Assembly: GCF_036231965.1 (NCBI RefSeq)
Contig: NZ_CP109499.1
Coordinates: forward strand, 2,542,001-2,606,000
Direction: 5' to 3'
Source of the DNA: Streptomyces sp. NBC_01428
Lineage (GTDB): Bacteria > Actinomycetota > Actinomycetes > Streptomycetales > Streptomycetaceae
DNA length: 64,000 bases
Part shown: positions 42,731 to 51,141 of the stretch, in pieces
How positions within the stretch are numbered: the stretch's first letter is position 1
Layout: each line of letters starts with the position of its first letter
The notes under the pieces: model-generated
Told to the model about the DNA's origin: nothing
Seen by the model: only the letters and a program-made list of their open reading frames with translations
Databases searched by the model: none
Translations under genes and position numbers: made by a program

Positions 42731-43952
42731 AGACGGGATCGCGCTCGACGGGGCAGCTCATGCAGCGCGGGCCGCCCCTGCCCCGGCCCAGCTCGCTGCC
42801 GGGGATCTCGATCACCTCGATGCCCTGTTTGCGCAGATGCGTGTTGGTCGTGGCGTTGCGTTCGTAGGCGATCACGACACCCGGCTCGACGGCGAGGACG
42901 TTGCAGCCGTCGTCCCACTGCTCCCGCTCGGCCGCATGGACGTCCTGGGTGGCGGTCAGGACCCGGATCGCGTCGAGGCCGAGCGCCGCGGCGATGGCGC
43001 GGTGCATGTGCTCCGGGGGGTGGTCGGTGACCTTCAGCTCCTTCTCCCCCACGCCGGGCTCGATGGTGTACGAGCGGAGCATGCCGAGGCCCGCGTACTG
43101 GGTGAAGGTGTCGCCGCCGACCATCGTCATCACGGTGTCGAGGTGCATGAACGCGCGCCGTTTCGGCATGTCGAGCGCCACGATGGTGGTCGCCGAGCCG
43201 GCCGCGAACAGCTTGTGCGCGAGCATCTCGACGGCTTGGGGCGTCGTGCGCTCGCTCATGCCGATGAGCACCGCGCCGTTGCCGATCACCAGGACGTCTC
43301 CGCCCTCGATCGTGGACGGGTAGTCGGCCTGCCCCTGCGACCAGAGGTTGAAGCCCTCGTCGCGGAAGAGCGGGTGGTGCCGGTAGATCGCCTCGAAGTG
43401 CACGGTCTCGCGCTGCCGGGCCGGCCAGCGCATCGCGTTGATGGAGACCCCGTCGTATATCCAGGCGGAGGTGTCCCGGGTGAAGAGGTGGTTGGGCAGC
43501 GGGCCGAGCAGGAAGTCGTCGAGGTCCATGACGTGGAAGCGCACGGAGGTGGGCTCCGGGTGGGCGTCCAGGAACTCCCGCTTGGTCATGCCGCCGACGA
43601 GGACCGAGGCCAGTTCCGGCGCGGGCAGCGTCTCGAAGGCCGCCCGGAGGTGATCGGTGGCGAGCGGGCCGTACTCCTTCTCGTCGAAGACCCGGTCGAG
43701 GACGAGCGACCGGGCCGCCGGGATCGCCAGCGTCTCGGCGAGCAGGTCTCCGAAGAGGTGGACGGCGACCCCGCGGTCGCGCAGCACGTCGGCGAACCCG
43801 TCGTGCTCGGCGCGCGCCCGGCGCACCCACAGGACGTCGTCGAAGAGGAGGGCGTCCTTGTTGCTGGGGGTGAGCCTTTTGAGCTCGAGGTCGGGCCTGT
43901 GCAGGATGACGCGGCGCAGCCGCCCGGCCTCGGAGTCGACGTGGAATCCCAT
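42729..43952 (-). CDS. arcA: Arginine deiminase
   Basis: 407 residues, the usual length. It hydrolyses arginine to citrulline and ammonia in the cytoplasm. Family segments are clear: [69 protein letters not shown] and the catalytic Cys397 in [11 protein letters not shown]. The frame opens at 43985; the ATG at 43952 with AGGA eight nt upstream begins the conserved body. It is followed by a MITE-like element, then argF and a permease, forming an arginine deiminase group. A carbamate kinase (arcC), which would complete ATP formation, is absent from the window. Confidence 0.95.
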
Positions 43953-44027
43953 GTCTCCATCCTGACCATCCGGACGCGCGTTCACCCGCGGATCGCCGTG
44001 AGCCGCGTCGCATTCATTTCGTCCTCT

Positions 44028-44057
44028 TGACGATAAGAGCGTCCCCGCTTATCGTCT
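44028..44057 (+). promoter_or_regulatory. Promoter with embedded inverted repeat before the SPFH gene
   Basis: TTGACG (44028-44033) and TATCGT (44051-44056) are spaced 17 bp, a good vegetative-type promoter for the SPFH gene. A 9-bp perfect inverted repeat GACGATAAG/CTTATCGTC (44030-44038 and 44049-44057) covers both boxes, an arrangement expected for a repressor operator. It also lies about 80 bp upstream of the divergent arcA. Confidence 0.55.
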
Positions 44058-44116
44058 CAGTGACGACAACAGGGAACGAGAGGTCGCCGGGAACGCCCGG
44101 CGCCGAGGGGGTACTC

Positions 44117-45196
44117 ATGGCCGACATCACCCGTCGCTTCGGCTGGCGCCATCTGCGCGGGGGCCCCACGGCCCACGTCCGGCACCACCGGTCGGGACAG
44201 CTGGTGCACGACGGCCCGGGCCTCAGCTTCTGGTACCGCTCGCTGACCGCGGCCCTCTCCGAGGTCCCGGTCGACGACCGCGAGCTGGCGATGACCTTCC
44301 ACGCGCGGACGTCCGACTTCCAGGACGTCGCCGTGCAGGCCACCGTCACGTACCGGATCAGCGACCCCTCCCTCGCGGCCGCCCGCCTCGACTTCTCCAT
44401 CGACCCCGACACGGGCGCGTGGCGCGGCACCCCGCTCGAACAACTGGGCTCGCTGCTGACCGAGACGGCTCAGCAGCACGCGCTGGACGTCCTCGCCCGT
44501 ACGTCGCTGGGCTCCGCGCTGGTCGACGGGGTCGCGGCGGTCCGGGAGCGGATCGCCGGGGGGCTCGCCGCGGAACCCCGGCTGCCCGCCACCGGCATCG
44601 AGGTGGTCGCCGTGCGCGTGGTGGCGCTGCGCCCCGAGCCCGAGGTGGAGCGCGCGCTGCGCACCCCGGCCCGCGAGCAGATCCAGCAGGACGCGGACAA
44701 GGCGACGTACGAACGCCGGGCGGTCGCCGTCGAGCGGGAGCGTGCCATCGCCGAGAACGAACTCGCGAGTCAGATCGAACTCGCGCGGCGCGAGGAGCAG
44801 TTGGTCGACCAGCGCGGTACGAACGCGCGCCGCGAGGCCGAGGAGCACGCGGCGGCGGACGCCGTGCGCGCCGGGGCGGAGGCCGCCCGCACGGTCCGGC
44901 TGGCCGAGGCGGAGGCCACCCGGTCGCTGCGGCTCGCCGAGGCGGAGGCGAGCCGCAAGGTGCGGCTGGCGGGGGCCGAGGCGCAGGCGGAGCGCGAGGT
45001 CGGCGCGGCCCGGGCCGAGGCGCAGGCCGCCTGGCTGCGGGTGCACGGCGAGGTGGACGTCACCACGCTGCACGCCCTCACCGGGACCCGGCTCGCGGAG
45101 AACCTGCCGCGCATCGAGAGCGTCACGGTGTCGCCCGACGTGCTGACCGGGCTGCTCGCCAAGCTGGGCAACGCAGCCGGCGGAGAGCAGGCGTGA
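44117..45196 (+). CDS. SPFH/band-7 domain protein
   Basis: 359 residues. Residues about 20-190 form an SPFH/band-7 domain (VPVDDRELAMTFHARTSDFQ, VAVQATVTYRISDPSLAAAR, LLTETAQQHALDVLARTSL, TGIEVVAVRVVALRPEPEVE). Residues about 195-310 are a charged Ala/Glu/Arg coiled coil with repeated EAEA-type turns. No membrane segment is obvious, so it is probably a cytoplasmic or peripheral oligomeric scaffold. The ATG at 44117 has GAGGGGG six nt upstream. Its stop overlaps the start of the NAD-kinase-like gene (GTGA), so the two proteins should be made together and probably interact. Confidence 0.88.
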   Translation: MADITRRFGWRHLRGGPTAHVRHHRSGQLVHDGPGLSFWYRSLTAALSEVPVDDRELAMTFHARTSDFQDVAVQATVTYRISDPSLAAARLDFSIDPDTGAWRGTPLEQLGSLLTETAQQHALDVLARTSLGSALVDGVAAVRERIAGGLAAEPRLPATGIEVVAVRVVALRPEPEVERALRTPAREQIQQDADKATYERRAVAVERERAIAENELASQIELARREEQLVDQRGTNARREAEEHAAADAVRAGAEAARTVRLAEAEATRSLRLAEAEASRKVRLAGAEAQAEREVGAARAEAQAAWLRVHGEVDVTTLHALTGTRLAENLPRIESVTVSPDVLTGLLAKLGNAAGGEQA

Positions 45197-46086
45197 GCCT
45201 CGCTCCCCGGGTCGTCCTCGTCCACCGCACCAGCGAGTACGAGGAGTTGGTGGCCCGGCACGGTACGCACGGGCAGGCCGCGTTCTTCCTGTCCTCGCGC
45301 GGCCGGGACATCGCGGAGGTCGCCGAACGGCACCGGCGGGCCCGTGCGGCGCTCGCCGAGGTGGTCGCCGCCGTGCCGCTGACCTGGCGTCAGGCACGGG
45401 TGGAGCGGGCCGATCTGGACCGGTTCCTGTTCGCGCCGGAGGACGTCGTGGTCGTCGTCGGGCAGGACGGACTGGTCGCGAACGTGGCCAAGTACCTGGC
45501 GGGCCAGCCGGTCGTGGGGATCGACGCCGACCCGGGGCGCAATCCGGGCGTGCTGGTGCGGCACCGTCCCGGGAACGTCAAGGCGCTGCTCGGCTCCGCG
45601 TTCACGGGGGCGGCGGACGAACTGACCATGGTCGAGGCGGTCGCCGACGACACGCAGCGGCTGGTCGCCCTCAACGAGATCTACCTGGGATCCGCGGGCC
45701 ACCAGACGGCCCGCTATCGGCTGGGGCTCGACGAGTACGGGGGTGCCGTCGAGCCCCAGGCCTCCAGCGGGGTGCTGGTGGGGACCGGGACCGGTGCGAG
45801 CGGGTGGCTCCGGTCGGTGTGGCAGGAGCGGGGCGGGGGGCCCGCGCTGCCCGGCCCGACCGACCGGCGGCTGCTGTGGTTCGTCCGCGAGGCGTGGCCC
45901 TCGCCGGCCACCGGTACGTCGCTGGTGGCCGGTGAGTTGGGTGCCGACGGGCGGCTGTGTCTCACCGTCGAGTCGGACCGGCTCATCGTGTTCGGGGACG
46001 GGATGGAGGGGGATGCGGTGGAACTGACGTGGGGGCAGACCGTGCGGGTGGGGGTGGCCGGGGTTCGGCTCCGGCTGGTCGGCTGA
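45193..46086 (+). CDS. Degenerate NAD-kinase-like protein coupled to the SPFH gene
   Basis: 297 residues with the overall plan of ATP-NAD kinase. The GGDG motif is replaced by GQDG (residues 90-93, after VVVVV). The ALNE motif is kept (159-162), and the later TPTGST-like turn appears as GTGTGASGW (197-205). GGDG takes part in catalysis in NAD kinases, so this may be a weak kinase, a diphosphate-binding sensor or a lipid/diacylglycerol-kinase-like relative. The GTG start sits in a GTGA overlap with the SPFH gene. Its function is not known; the coupling suggests a nucleotide-responsive partner of the SPFH scaffold. Confidence 0.75.
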   Translation: MSLAPRVVLVHRTSEYEELVARHGTHGQAAFFLSSRGRDIAEVAERHRRARAALAEVVAAVPLTWRQARVERADLDRFLFAPEDVVVVVGQDGLVANVAKYLAGQPVVGIDADPGRNPGVLVRHRPGNVKALLGSAFTGAADELTMVEAVADDTQRLVALNEIYLGSAGHQTARYRLGLDEYGGAVEPQASSGVLVGTGTGASGWLRSVWQERGGGPALPGPTDRRLLWFVREAWPSPATGTSLVAGELGADGRLCLTVESDRLIVFGDGMEGDAVELTWGQTVRVGVAGVRLRLVG

Positions 46087-46804
46087 CCGGGCCTGGCGGC
46101 CCTCCCCGCCCCACCTTCACCGAACCCCGCCGGGCCCCTTCGCCCCTTGGCGGGGGCGCCGCCGTTTCCGGCTCCCCGCCGGTGGGGGCCGACCGCGCAG
46201 TTCCCCGCGCCCCTGGACGGCCACCCGCATCGCAGGCGCGGCCCCCTCCAGCCGGCCGCCCCGGCCCGTGGCCGACTGACCGCCGGTGGGGGCTGATCGC
46301 GCCGTTCCCCGCGCCCCTGGGCTACGCACCCCCGTTGCACGTGCAGCGGACTCCCGCCCGCGCCCGGGCCCGTGGTCGGCTGACCGCCGGTGGGGGCTGG
46401 CCGCGCAGTTCCCCGCGCCCCCAGACGGCCTACGGCCGCCCCGGGCACCACCGACGCCACCCCCAGGGGCGCGGGGAACCGGCCCGCCAGTCGACGACTG
46501 CCGGCGGCCCGTTCAGGGGCGCGGGGAACTGCGCGAGCAACCCCCACCAGCCCGCCACTCGGCCACTACCGGCAGCCCGTCCAGGGGCGCGGGGAACTGC
46601 GCGAGCAACCCCCACCAGCCCGCCACTCGGCCACTACCGGCAGCCCGTCCAGGGGCGCGGGGAACTGCGCGAGCAACCCCCACCAGCCCGCCACTCGGCC
46701 ACTACCGGCAGCCCGTCCAGGGGCGCGGGGAACTGCGCGCGCAACCCCCACCGGCCGGCAGCCGGGGCACCGGGCCCGTGGGGGTGGGCGAGGAGGGGTG
46801 CCCG
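46087..46804. other. Repeat-filled gap between convergent genes
   Basis: About 720 bases with no gene. The left half holds three copies of CGCGCAGTTCCCCGCGCCCC-type words (46181-46216, 46285-46320, 46389-46422). The right half holds the same word inverted, embedded in 68-bp tandem units. Long frames through it are artefacts of the repeat composition. Confidence 0.8.
46516..46770. repeat. 68-bp tandem repeats with Streptomyces-type GGGGCGCGGGGAACTGCGCG word
   Basis: Three 68-bp units (46516-46583, 46584-46651, 46652-46719) appear identical. A fourth begins at 46720 and diverges after about 35 bp. Each begins GGGGCGCGGGGAACTGCGCG. Near-perfect identity of three copies implies recent duplication or slippage. 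The inverted copies to the left could pair with them into long hairpins, ending both convergent transcripts. Confidence 0.85.
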
Positions 46805-49348
46805 CTACAGGCGGGGGTCCACCGGTTCGGATTCCAGGGCCAGCGTGGCGAAGACCGCCTCGTGGACGCGCCAGAGCGGTTCTCCCTCCGCCAGGCGGTC
46901 CAGTGCCTCCAGGCCGAGGGCGTACTCGCGCAGCGCGAGGGACCGCTTGTGGTTCAGGAAACGGCCGCGCAGGCGGGTGAGGTTCTCCGGACGGGTGTAC
47001 TCCGGACCGTAGATGATCCGCAGGTACTCACGCCCCCGGCACTTGATGCCGGGCTGCATCAGCCGCCCCTTCTCGCTCCGCACCAGCGCCCCCGCCGGCT
47101 TCACGACCATGCCCTCGCCGCCGCGGCCGGTCATCTCCAGCCACCAGTCGACGCCGGCCCGCACCGACTCCGGGTCACCGGTGTCGACGAAGAGGCGCCG
47201 GGTGGTCTGGAGGAGACCGGTGCCGTCGTGTTCCACGAGCCGGTCGATCAGGGCCAGTTGCCCGTCGTGCGGCAGCGCGGCGAGGCTCCGTCCCTGGACG
47301 GCCAGGATCTGGAACGGGGCGAGGCGGACGCCGTCGAGGCCGTCCGTGGTCCAGCAGTAGCGCCGGTAGGCGTCGGTGAACGCGGCCGCGTCCACGGCCC
47401 GTTCACGCTGGCGGCTCAGCAGGTCCCCGACATCGATGCCCCGCGCGGCGGCCCCTTCGAGCGCCGACAGGGCACCCGGGAACACCGCTCCGGACGCGGC
47501 GCCGACCGCGGCGTACTGGTTGCGCAGCAGTCCGGACGCCTTCAGCGACCACGGCATCAGCTCGGCGTCGAGCAGCAGCCAGTCGGTGTCCAGCTCCTCC
47601 CACAGTCCGGCCTCGGTCGCGGCGGCACGCACCCGGCCGAGGATCTCCTCGGTGACGGCGGCGTCGTCGAAGAAGGGCCGGCCGGTGCGGGTGTACAGGG
47701 ACCCGGTGGGGCCGTCCACGCCGAACCGCTCGCGCGCCACGTCCGCGTCCCGGCAGACCAGAGCCACCGCCCGCGACCCCATGTGCTTCTCCTCGCACAC
47801 GACCCGCTCTACCCCGTCCTCCTTGTACTGGGCGAAGGCCTCCGCGGGGTGCTCCAGGTAGCCCTCGACGTGCGAGGTCGCGGTGGGGGCCATGGTCGGC
47901 GGCAGGTACGGGAGCAGCCGCGGGTCCACGGCGAAGCGGCTCATGACCTCCAGGGCCGCGGCAGCGTTCTCCTCACGGACGGCCACCCGGCCGGCGTGCC
48001 GGGTCTCGACGGCCCTGCGGCCGTACACGTCCGCGAGGTCCAGCGGCCTGCCCTCGTGACCGCCCGGCGCCTCGGTGGCGAGCGGCTTGGCCGGTTCGTA
48101 CCAGACCTGCTCGGCCGGTACGTCGACCAGTTCGCGCTCCGGCCAGCGCAGCGCGGTCAGCTTGCCGCCGAACACCGCGCCGGTGTCCAGGCAGATGGTG
48201 TTGTTGAGCCAGGTCGCCGTGGGGACGGGGGTGTGGCCGTAGACCACGGCGGCGCGGCCCCGGTAGTCCTCGGCCCACGGGTAGCGCACCGGCAGGCCGA
48301 ACTCGTCGGTCTCGCCGGTGGTGTCGCCGTAGAGCGCGTGCGAGCGCACCCGGCCCGAGGTGCGGCCGTGGTACTTCTCGGGCAGACCGGCGTGGCAGAC
48401 CACGAGCCGGCCGCCGTCGAGGACGTAGTGGCTGACGAGTCCGTCGACGAACTCCCGCACGGAGGAACGGAACGCGTCGCTCTGCGCGTCCAGCTGCTCG
48501 ATGGTCTCGGCGAGTCCGTGCGTGTGCTGGACCTTGCGGCCCTTGAGGTAGCGGCCGAGCTTGTTCTCGTGGTTGCCGGGCACGCACAGGGCGTCGCCCG
48601 ACCCGACCATGGACATCACGCGGCGCAGTACGCCGGGGGTGTCGGGTCCGCGGTCGACGAGGTCACCGACGAAGACGGCGGTACGGCCCTCGGGGTGCGC
48701 GCCGTCGACGTAGCCGAGCTTGCCGAGCAGGGTCTCCAGCTCGGCGGCGCACCCGTGGATGTCGCCGACGATGTCGAAGGGGCCGGTGAGGTGGGTCAGG
48801 TCGTTGAACCGCTTCTCCGTCACGACCGAGGCGTTCTCCACGTCGGCGACGCCCCGCAGGACGTGCACCTTGCGGAAGCCTTCGCGCTCCAACTGCCGCA
48901 GGGAGCGGCGCAGTTCGCGGATGTGGCGCTGGATGACGCGGCGCGGCATCCCGGCGCGGTCGGTGCGGGCCGCGTTGCGTTCGGCGCACACTTCCTCGGG
49001 CACGTCGAGGACGATCGCGATGGGCAGCACGTCGTGCTTGCGGGCGAGTTCGACCAGCTGCCGGCGGCTGTCCTGCTGGACGCTGGTCGCGTCGACGACG
49101 GTCCGGCGGCCGGCCGCGAGGCGCTTGCCCGCGATGTAGTGCAGGACGTCGAAGGCGTCGCCGCTGGCGCTCTGGTCGTTCTCGTCGTCGGCGACCAGGC
49201 CACGGCAGAAGTCGCTGGAGATGATCTCCGTCGGCTTGAAGTGGCGCCGGGCGAAGGTCGACTTGCCGGATCCCGACGCGCCGATCAGCACCACGAGGGA
49301 GAGGTCGGTGACGGGCAGGACGCGCCCCTGGTAGGTCTCGTCGCTCAT
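46805..49348 (-). CDS. pnkp: Polynucleotide kinase-phosphatase-ligase for RNA repair
   Basis: 847 residues in three catalytic parts. The 5'-OH polynucleotide kinase (about 1-170) has the P-loop GASGSGKSTFARR. The metallophosphatase (about 185-440) has DIVGDIHG, VGDLVDRGPDT, PGNHENK and YGHTPVP, and removes 2',3'-cyclic phosphates. The adenylyltransferase/ligase-like part (about 480-847) has the nucleotidyl Lys in EEKHMGSRAV and the later GEGMVVKP. This is the bacterial Pnkp that heals and, with Hen1, seals RNA cut by ribotoxins. It starts in an ATGA overlap with hen1, so both are coupled. No toxin or nuclease gene is adjacent. Confidence 0.95.
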   Translation of the reverse strand: MSDETYQGRVLPVTDLSLVVLIGASGSGKSTFARRHFKPTEIISSDFCRGLVADDENDQSASGDAFDVLHYIAGKRLAAGRRTVVDATSVQQDSRRQLVELARKHDVLPIAIVLDVPEEVCAERNAARTDRAGMPRRVIQRHIRELRRSLRQLEREGFRKVHVLRGVADVENASVVTEKRFNDLTHLTGPFDIVGDIHGCAAELETLLGKLGYVDGAHPEGRTAVFVGDLVDRGPDTPGVLRRVMSMVGSGDALCVPGNHENKLGRYLKGRKVQHTHGLAETIEQLDAQSDAFRSSVREFVDGLVSHYVLDGGRLVVCHAGLPEKYHGRTSGRVRSHALYGDTTGETDEFGLPVRYPWAEDYRGRAAVVYGHTPVPTATWLNNTICLDTGAVFGGKLTALRWPERELVDVPAEQVWYEPAKPLATEAPGGHEGRPLDLADVYGRRAVETRHAGRVAVREENAAAALEVMSRFAVDPRLLPYLPPTMAPTATSHVEGYLEHPAEAFAQYKEDGVERVVCEEKHMGSRAVALVCRDADVARERFGVDGPTGSLYTRTGRPFFDDAAVTEEILGRVRAAATEAGLWEELDTDWLLLDAELMPWSLKASGLLRNQYAAVGAASGAVFPGALSALEGAAARGIDVGDLLSRQRERAVDAAAFTDAYRRYCWTTDGLDGVRLAPFQILAVQGRSLAALPHDGQLALIDRLVEHDGTGLLQTTRRLFVDTGDPESVRAGVDWWLEMTGRGGEGMVVKPAGALVRSEKGRLMQPGIKCRGREYLRIIYGPEYTRPENLTRLRGRFLNHKRSLALREYALGLEALDRLAEGEPLWRVHEAVFATLALESEPVDPRL

Positions 49349-50823
49349 GCCGCCTTCTCCTCCTTCTTCGCGGTCGGGGTGGCTGTGGTCACGGTGAAGA
49401 CGGCCATCTGGGTCGGTGGGCCGACCTCGGGGTCGTCGAGGCCGACGGGGGTGAACTCCACGGTGTATCCGTGCCGTTCGGCGACCGTGCGGGCCCAGGC
49501 CCGGAACTCCTCACGGGTCCATTCGAAGCGGTGGTCGCCGTGCCGGCTGTGTCCGGCGGGGAGGGTCTCCCAGCGGACGTTGTACTCGACGTTCGGGGTG
49601 GTCACGAGGACGGTCCGCGGGCGGGCGGAGCCGAACACGGCGTACTCCAGGGCGGGCAGCCGGGGCAGGTCGAGGTGCTCGACGACCTCGCTGAGCACGG
49701 CGGCGTCGTATCCCTTGAGCCGGCGGTCGGTGTAGGCGAGCGAGCCCTGGACGAGCTGGACGCGCGCGGCCTGCCGCTCGCCCATGCGGTCCAGCTTGAG
49801 CCGGCGCGCGGCGATGGTGAGAGCGCGCATGGACACGTCGACGCCGACGATCTCGGTGAACCGGGTGTCCTTGAGCAGTGCCTGGACCAACTGGCCCTGC
49901 CCGCAGCCGAGGTCGAGGACGCGGCTCGCGCCGGACGCGTGCAGCGCGGCGAGGATCGCGTCCCGGCGCAGCACGGCGAGCGGCACCGGCTTCTCCTCGG
50001 TGTCGGTCTCCTCGTCGACCGCGTTGTCGATTTCCTCGACGTCTGTGTCGTCGGTCTCGGCGAGGCGGACGAGTTCGAGCCGCTCCATGGCCTCCCGGGT
50101 CAGCGACCAACGCCGGGACAGGTAGCGGCTGGTGATCAGCTTCTGCTCCGGGTGGTCGGGCAGCCAGCCCTCGCCCGCGCGCAGCAGCTTGTCGACCTCG
50201 TCGGACGCCACCCAGTAGTGCTTGGCGTCGTCGAGGACCGGGAGCAGGACGTAGAGGTGGCGCAGCGCCTCGGCGACCGTCAGCTCCCGCGCCTCCAACT
50301 CCAGCCGTACGTAGCGGGATTCACCCCATTCCGGGAACTGTTCGTCCAGCGGAACGGGCTCGGCCGACACGGTCCAGCCGAGTGGTTCGAAGAGCGCTCG
50401 GACGAGGCCGGCGCCGCCGCGTGCGGGCAGCGCGGGCACCTCGACACGCAGCGGCCGGGCTTCGGCGGGCAGTTCGGGCCGAGCGGCGCACTGGCCCTTC
50501 ATCGCGCTGGAGAAGACGGCGCTCAGCGCGACGGCGAGCAGCGAGGAGGCCGCGTACGGGCGGTCGTTGACGTACTGCGCGAGCGCGGCATCGGGTGCGC
50601 CGCCTCGTCCCTTGCCCTTGCCGCGCCGGACCAGGGCCACCGCGTCGACCTCCAGGAGCAGCGCGGCCGTGCACCGCTCGGCGGTCGCCTCGGGATAGAG
50701 GACGTGGGCCGTGCCGTAGGACGTCGAGAACGTCTGCGCCTTGTCGGGATGCTTGTGCAGCAGGAAGCCGAGATCGGTCGCTGGGCGCTCTGGGGTACCG
50801 GTGGTACTGATCGTCAGGAACAC
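49345..50823 (-). CDS. hen1: 3'-terminal RNA ribose 2'-O-methyltransferase Hen1
   Basis: 492 residues. The N-terminal half (about 1-250) is the bacteria-specific domain that activates the Pnkp ligase (LGFLLHKHPDKAQTFSTSYG, PLGWTVSAEPVPLDE). The C-terminal half is the methyltransferase: SAM motif DLGCGQGQL near residue 310, the metal and catalytic motif EVVEHLDLPRLPALE, and HRFEWTREEFRAWA. Hen1 methylates the 2'-OH of the broken RNA 3' end before Pnkp sealing, which prevents the same toxin from cutting again. The GTG at 50823 begins the conserved body with GAGG ten nt upstream; the frame is open to 51135 without support. It is coupled to pnkp by ATGA. Confidence 0.95.
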   Translation of the reverse strand: MFLTISTTGTPERPATDLGFLLHKHPDKAQTFSTSYGTAHVLYPEATAERCTAALLLEVDAVALVRRGKGKGRGGAPDAALAQYVNDRPYAASSLLAVALSAVFSSAMKGQCAARPELPAEARPLRVEVPALPARGGAGLVRALFEPLGWTVSAEPVPLDEQFPEWGESRYVRLELEARELTVAEALRHLYVLLPVLDDAKHYWVASDEVDKLLRAGEGWLPDHPEQKLITSRYLSRRWSLTREAMERLELVRLAETDDTDVEEIDNAVDEETDTEEKPVPLAVLRRDAILAALHASGASRVLDLGCGQGQLVQALLKDTRFTEIVGVDVSMRALTIAARRLKLDRMGERQAARVQLVQGSLAYTDRRLKGYDAAVLSEVVEHLDLPRLPALEYAVFGSARPRTVLVTTPNVEYNVRWETLPAGHSRHGDHRFEWTREEFRAWARTVAERHGYTVEFTPVGLDDPEVGPPTQMAVFTVTTATPTAKKEEKAA

Positions 50824-51141
50824 TGTCGTCTGCCTCGAAACGTCTTCTGAGCTGCGGAGACCCACACGGATCGGCGGTTCGGCGCACTCGGGTGCGCGCC
50901 TCTCCGGCGCCGCCCGGTCGCAGCGATGGGCGAGCGCGCCTCGGGGTCGCCGCCGCGCGCCTTCCTCCGGCCCGGCGGCTCGTGGCCACAGCGCGCCGCG
51001 GTCGGCCGCGGGGGCGACGCCTGGTCTCGGCGCGCCCCCACAACGTACCGCCGACGTCCCAGGTGGGCTCGGGTTTTTTCGTGCCGCCGGGGTGGGCGAC
51101 GGGGGTCGGACGGAGGTGCCGGACGATCTCGGCACGGCCTC
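50824..51141. other. GC-rich gap between tetR and hen1
   Basis: About 320 bases. The hen1 promoter must lie in the left part. A T6 run (51073-51078) is the only homopolymer of note, with only a weak dyad before it, so I do not call a terminator. No gene is seen. Confidence 0.5.

Follow-up and report, generated by a model that had tools for sequence, protein, structure and literature searches.

In Streptomyces sp. NBC_01428, a gene for an SPFH/Band_7 protein overlaps a gene for a relative of the NAD kinase NADK2, and sequence comparison gives good support for the co-inheritance of the two genes and for palindromic boxes that they share with the genes for the regulator NrtR and the NAD-salvage enzyme PncB. 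The pair is located in the window, by which we mean the whole 64,000-nucleotide stretch analysed here (contig NZ_CP109499.1, positions 2,542,001 to 2,606,000); the host genome is a single contig of 9.08 Mb. With somewhat better than even confidence we propose that the pair is an NrtR-controlled module induced on NAD breakdown, in which a soluble SPFH assembly would carry the NADK2-like kinase. The pair and its control region comprise the following features (window positions):

44016-44036, core 44019-44033: upstream NrtR-type box ATTTCGTCCTCTTGACGATAA, over the -35 element; found by pattern, kept in actinobacterial relatives
44027-44055, plus strand: sigma-70-type promoter-like site TTGACG-17-TATCGT; 9 of 12 consensus positions, 0.0 expected in shuffles
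44049-44069, core 44052-44066: downstream NrtR-type box TTATCGTCTCAGTGACGACAA, over the -10 element, spaced 33 bp from the upstream box
44117-45196, plus strand: SPFH/Band_7 gene, 359 amino acids; open reading frame, Pfam match and model
45193-46086, plus strand: NADK2-like gene, 297 amino acids, whole NAD kinase fold; open reading frame, alignment and model

The initial annotation had described an SPFH/band-7 gene running into an NAD-kinase-like gene at a GTGA, and this was confirmed: the two reading frames share 4 bp, in which the SPFH stop codon runs into the GTG start codon of the kinase-like gene (45193), and the SPFH protein matches Pfam Band_7 with 59.4 bits (cut-off 23.6). The SPFH gene most likely starts at the ATG at 44117 (MADI...), which is kept in Streptomyces relatives; position 44028 falls inside the promoter. 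Of the 105 loci tried, 103 allowed both genes to be placed, and in 60 of these the overlap came out at the same -4; a script picked the starts, and outlying values (-509 or +250, for example) probably reflect wrongly chosen starts.

We scanned 84,980 species, each represented by one genome, and obtained at least 543 relatives of the kinase-like protein among at least 593 pattern matches; the best 80 were kept, with taxa assigned from record titles. All of these 80 named relatives have an SPFH relative directly upstream on the same strand (in one, L109, the contig starts inside the SPFH gene), and they come from at least seven phyla; the record titles name Actinomycetota, Planctomycetota, Chloroflexi, alphaproteobacteria, delta/myxobacteria, Holophagaceae and Schekmanbacteria. 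Outside the genus, four strong kinase-like matches (G405, G395, G124 and G569) turned up among the 396 genomes of a phylum sample, and all lie beside an SPFH gene, as does a broken match in G449. The refuting case named in the initial annotation, homologues that usually lie apart, was thus not borne out, and the idea of dedicated partner genes held. Of nine weak kinase matches from the 198- and 396-genome samples (G020, G051, G169, G191, G507, G498, G049, G521 and G499), eight have GGDG and were taken as ordinary NAD kinases that do not belong to the family, and G499 matched with a C-terminal piece only. No SPFH relative was found in the stretches around four of the nine (L050-L053). Weak SPFH matches without a kinase in the 198-genome sample (G036, G131, G164 and G185) were discarded; none of them reaches further towards the N-terminus than residue 168, and they consist mostly of coiled coil.

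Of 199 genomes from the genus, 97 have the kinase-like gene, 101 the SPFH gene and 96 both; these counts include partial matches (for instance G204, G228, G306 and G337), and adjacency was computed for 19 stretches. The exceptions are a kinase fragment with a stop codon (G224), weak SPFH matches (G200 and G259), a weak match at a decayed locus (G372), an SPFH gene with an internal stop (G274) and a partial SPFH match in a fragmented assembly (G329). The divergence of the two proteins is correlated (Mantel r 0.85 for 68 rows including the window; 0 of 2000 permutations as high), a value that is confounded by shared ancestry. Both kinds of gene, SPFH and NAD kinase, are common, and an additional housekeeping NAD kinase could by chance have come to lie beside an SPFH gene. 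We regard this as highly improbable: it is already contradicted by adjacency in every one of the 80 loci across at least seven phyla, and by regulation that is conserved in Actinomycetota.

By sequence and predicted fold, the kinase-like protein is NADK-like, with NADK2 as its nearest relative. The model has a complete NAD kinase fold (pLDDT 94.3), its top structure matches are human NADK2 (Z 25.0, rmsd 3.1 over 279 residues), and NAD kinases fill the matches listed in the fold search. The best PDB sequence match of the family profile is also NADK2 (E 2.6e-18). A comparison with NAD kinase and diacylglycerol kinase families had been suggested for the GQDG site; its outcome was NADK-like, not DAGK-like, and the diacylglycerol kinase identity was dropped (DAGK_cat matched only at E 0.12).

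The motifs reported earlier are all present, namely GQDG in place of GGDG (90-93), ALNE (159-162) and GTGTG within GTGTGASG (197-201), followed by a C-terminal DG (269-270). We aligned 70 members, the window protein and 69 of 104 placed loci, hand-chosen to thin close copies. At the GxDG site the first Gly is found in 70 members, the second position is Q in 64, P in five and A in one, Asp is kept in 69 (one Ser), and the following Gly and Leu are found in all 70. N161-E162, G199-T200-G201 and D269-G270 are invariant, and the NE motif and the Gly-rich loop align with the NAD kinase of the same genome. GQDG is also present in seven of seven extra members (from Rhizobium, Treponema, Roseomonas, Acinetobacter and Providencia plasmids, from pAST2 and from a viral contig). 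Among six aligned distant members, four have ND for NE and another residue at T200; all six keep the C-terminal DG. Since the motif is common to the 70-member alignment and to distant members, GQDG is an old signature of the family, with Q, P or A at its variable position, rather than decay in this genome. GGDG, NE/D and the Gly-rich motif are reported as critical in NAD kinases (PMC12052686; PMC11233901), and the family keeps all of these residues but the second Gly. With the Asp of GxDG, NE/D, the Gly-rich loop and the C-terminal DG retained, the term 'degenerate' in the initial annotation goes too far.

The model of the SPFH protein (mean pLDDT 89.0, pTM 0.59) consists of an SPFH domain at about residues 3-173 and a 135-residue helix (175-309). 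It opens with the first SPFH strand at residue 3, and an N-terminal membrane helix is absent from it, so the protein is probably a soluble member of the superfamily. The best matches in the fold search are HflK and stomatin, and erlin, flotillin, prohibitin and vault are among the 50 matches listed. From this fold, a ring or cage oligomer may be expected. Matches to XaxB in a phmmer search of the PDB were taken as coiled-coil resemblance.

The control of the pair was approached from its neighbours and from its promoter. When 85 loci (80 named, five from the phylum sample) were compared all against all, the one clear recurrent neighbour was a Nudix gene, found in 59 loci by clustering; the next clusters (15 and 10 loci) are mixed or antisense frames, judged by eye. 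A profile script placed an NrtR-like gene within 1.5 kb of the pair in 63 of the 85 loci, and three more (L061, L071 and L092), in which a stop-to-stop frame overlaps SPFH, were added by eye to give 66. The 63 genes comprise 47 divergent upstream, 13 same-strand upstream and three downstream of the pair. Both NUDIX and NrtR_WHD scored above the Pfam cut-off in all tested proteins, six from the loci and three from plasmids, and in the NrtR of the window genome. This genome has two NrtR_WHD genes, one of them at 2710898, 125 kb from the pair. Its product shares 67% identity with the NrtR encoded near the pair in Mycolicibacterium wolinskyi (L066); the gene was absent from the initial annotation because it lies outside the window.

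The promoter-like site carries an inverted repeat, GACGATAAG / CTTATCGTC, at 44029-44037 and 44048-44056. The 9-bp repeat noted earlier is real, and it turned out to be part of something larger: it represents the facing halves of two tandem NrtR-type palindromes, TCGTC-N5-GACGA, on the -35 and -10 elements. In the window genome, the 18-bp pattern TCGTCN5GACGANAA gave five rows at four places and the reversed control pattern gave none. Two of the places precede the pair, one lies 13 bp from the likely nrtR ATG, and the fourth, at 6413464, is probably a chance match. With two of the four sites located here and none for the control, the boxes at the pair are not due to chance. An additional core, not caught by the 18-bp pattern, is located 21 bp before the start codon of the genome's own pncB, and four other genomes, chosen for one site that they share, have the box before a nicotinate phosphoribosyltransferase gene (identified by eye in four, by Pfam in one).

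Of 19 further Streptomyces loci, 18 carry two copies of the core ahead of SPFH; G274, which would have been the twentieth, was not counted, as no kinase gene was placed in it. We then surveyed 84 other loci (79 named and five from the phylum sample). An exact core lies within 200 nt upstream of SPFH in 50 of them, and the remaining 1.26 Mb of these loci contains five. Two cores are present in 27 loci, and in 26 of these the spacing is 33-34 bp. By taxon, the exact box was found in 49 of 60 loci from Actinomycetota and in one of 24 others. At least one box row was obtained in 194 of the 199 genus genomes, with a mean of 4.13 rows per genome in the 97 with the kinase gene and 1.59 in the 102 without it, against 0.30 and 0.31 for the reversed control; a palindromic site can yield two rows, so rows do not equal sites. 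Several extra matches from other genomes fall within genes and appear fortuitous. No Rfam family matched positions 43000-47000 at the gathering threshold, and hence no RNA element was found there.

We selected 20 stretches from pair-less genomes, out of about 90 box rows in 37 genomes. Five of them (L188-L192) retain a box beside an arginine-deiminase gene, which was identified by eye, and L192 still has SPFH fragments. Because boxes and SPFH remnants persist, the patchy distribution in Streptomyces is at least partly due to loss from an old locus.

Since the box type matches that of the genome's own nrtR and pncB, the pair is most simply a further arm of the NrtR response. NrtR would occupy the two boxes across the promoter and repress the pair; when NAD is cleaved, ADP-ribose would free NrtR, and the pair would be made along with PncB. 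The SPFH protein would assemble as a soluble ring or cage, on which the translationally coupled NADK2-like partner would be held. By phosphorylating NAD(H) or a closely related compound, this partner would preserve some of the pool that is left in the form of NADP(H). We infer the binding of NrtR and the inducing role of ADP-ribose here. In Mycobacterium smegmatis, 50 mM ADP-ribose releases NrtR from DNA (PMC6800001). In Pseudomonas aeruginosa, NrtR-repressed salvage genes are induced by an NAD-depleting toxin and protect the cell (PMC11535050). A complex between the two proteins, the kinase activity and its substrate are likewise inferred; most likely the kinase-like protein, placed on an SPFH platform, phosphorylates NAD(H) or a close relative. 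The nucleotide-responsive system that the initial annotation had suggested is supported in part: a link to nucleotide sensing exists through NrtR.

Several points weigh against this proposal. The kinase-like protein scores 14.2 bits against Pfam NAD_kinase (PF01513; cut-off 25.5) and is also under the NCBIfam NAD kinase cut-offs; the second Gly of GGDG is missing in 70 of the 70 aligned members, and together with the low Pfam score this means that catalysis may be altered or lost. The genome also encodes a canonical NAD kinase (L001), above the NCBIfam cut-off, and a second NAD-kinase-like protein (L002), above the Pfam cut-off only, which is likely an NAD kinase. The scaffold role is a prediction from the SPFH fold. 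No NrtR-like gene was found near the pair in 19 of the 85 loci (four of them with less than 0.6 kb upstream). For the genome's own NrtR and that of L066, the best NCBIfam match is the ADP-ribose-responsive repressor, with 109.0 and 141.8 bits; both are under the equivalog cut-off of 400, so the proteins belong to the NrtR family, which does not imply the same function. Finally, the exact box is missing in 34 of the 84 loci, 11 of 60 from Actinomycetota and 23 of 24 from outside, so that the box evidence is actinobacterial.

The changes in the active site could mean that the GQDG protein is a sensor, which binds NAD(H) or ADP-ribose without phosphorylation and gates the SPFH assembly or a third target. 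Besides the missing Gly, Leu replaces the Thr of GGDGT in 70 of 70 members, and an NAD kinase is already provided by the canonical gene. The Asp of GxDG (69 of 70), NE (in all 70, with ND in four of the six distant members), Gly-rich loop and C-terminal DG are kept, although a pure sensor would have no obvious need of them, and we consider this explanation rather doubtful. Another explanation is that the kinase acts on a different substrate, such as ADP-ribose or damaged NAD, and thereby removes the NrtR ligand or a toxic product. This would fit the changed nucleotide site and control by an ADP-ribose-responsive regulator family; a simple pattern search found the Nudix box retained in 44 of the 63 linked NrtR-like genes. 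The nearest relative by sequence and fold is nevertheless NADK2, an NAD kinase, and a different substrate seems unlikely to us. Equally tentative is a broader idea of a widespread and as yet unnamed response to NAD damage, in which a soluble SPFH cage would hold an NADK2-family enzyme whose modified phosphate site serves to 2'-phosphorylate NAD(H), ADP-ribose or a damaged nucleotide. The bacterial kinase would then share a branch with mitochondrial NADK2, and NADK2 itself may descend from an SPFH-coupled enzyme.

The pair is also found on plasmids. A kinase-like match was obtained in 64 of 72,556 plasmid records, and in 57 of them it spans 80% of the query or more. NUDIX, SPFH and kinase genes are arranged in the same way on Rhizobium etli p42f and on a Providencia plasmid; a Treponema plasmid has a NUDIX gene about 4 kb upstream of the pair, and on a Roseomonas plasmid a different, membrane-like divergent gene takes the place of the NUDIX gene. 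Plasmid annotations hide the family under the names 'hypothetical protein' and 'sugar kinase'. On the Acinetobacter plasmids pALWED1.1 and pAST2 (L172 and L173), the kinase-like gene adjoins tetR(H)/tet(H); pAST2 encodes a shorter protein at the usual place of SPFH, and pALWED1.1 has no annotated gene there.

These plasmid copies and the patchy presence of the pair would suit a module for defence against phages or NADase toxins, and one NrtR-type box elsewhere precedes the SIR2 protein of the PADLOC candidate system PDC-S65. The defence theme of the initial annotation found no backing in PADLOC 2.0.0, which matched no family to either protein at E up to 1. The pair had no match in 50,697 phage records, it decays in place in Streptomyces, and only the Nudix gene is clearly recurrent beside it (clusters judged by eye, not by defence models). 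A defence function is therefore quite improbable in our view.

The components of the pair resemble known systems and differ from them in defined ways. Human mitochondrial NADK2 (PDB 7r4j, 7r4l and 7n29) shares the full-length fold and the NE, SSG and GTGTG segments, but has GGDG in place of GQDG, and the protein described here is encoded with an SPFH gene. Canonical bacterial NAD kinases (PF01513) share the fold (Z about 20-22), the Asp of GGDG, NE and the Gly-rich loop, whereas the kinase-like protein is under the Pfam and NCBIfam cut-offs, is without the second Gly and is paired with SPFH. Operons that join an SPFH-fold gene to an NfeD or FtsH partner (HflK/C, stomatin, flotillin) show a similar linkage; here the partner is kinase-like and the model has no N-terminal membrane helix. 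NfeD is not among the clear recurrent neighbours, which comprise only the Nudix gene, and no search aimed at NfeD was made. According to PMC2636767, SPFH1, SPFH2 and SPFH5 genes are linked to a partner gene, SPFH8 and SPFH9 are named as most likely soluble, and the text of that paper does not contain 'nad', 'kinase' or 'nudix'. NrtR regulons of NAD metabolism have the same Nudix and NrtR_WHD regulator and a palindromic box before nrtR and pncB, but the targets here include the SPFH-kinase pair, and the box is TCGTC-N5-GACGA compared with GTTTTCGA-N7-TCGAAAAC for mycobacterial NrtR (PMC6800001).

In the literature searched, no paper joined NrtR with SPFH, or SPFH with NAD kinase or NADK. The matches for NrtR with 'band 7' or 'NAD kinase' are unrelated, judging by the listing, and a search for NrtR regulon and prohibitin gave none with both among the matches listed. 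As far as these searches go, the folds are known and the combination of SPFH with an NADK-like protein and its control are undescribed; an earlier SPFH target in the founding NrtR work is possible.

Bacterial conflict and persistence commonly involve NADases and toxins that deplete NAD, and little is known, beyond salvage, of how a cell answers NAD loss. A pair apparently under an NAD-turnover sensor is a directly testable candidate for such a response. With it, SPFH proteins, which often lack a clear molecular role, would gain a defined enzyme as partner, and a bacterial family would be placed next to human NADK2.

Other genes were found at NrtR-type boxes in further genomes. Four boxes (L164:7073, L164:13512, L179:5797 and L182:4638) adjoin DUF6204-like genes, which are under the Pfam cut-off, or a small unknown family whose members are alike by eye (L164:13540-14034 and L179:5338-5775); these genes may possibly be extra members of the regulon. 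In two genomes (L197 and L198), a box lies about 200 bp or less before a transporter-like gene, by chance or as a target. The box before the SIR2-like gene of PDC-S65 (L183:6866-8752, 648 bits), in the pair-less genome G216, has its core 28 bp before the called start, and NAD-sensor control of an NADase defence gene is possible in this single case.

Directly downstream of the pair, the window contains RNA-repair genes for Pnkp and Hen1 (46805-51135, minus strand), both above the NCBIfam cut-offs. A functional link of the pair to these genes and to the arginine-deiminase/OTC genes was rejected, as this neighbourhood is not conserved: it is present in one of the 80 named loci, a Streptomyces, and in seven of the 19 Streptomyces stretches (Hen1 in six of 19). 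Both genes of the pair are also located on a 257-kb IMG/VR contig classed as viral (L168), which could be a large phage or a misfiled host contig.

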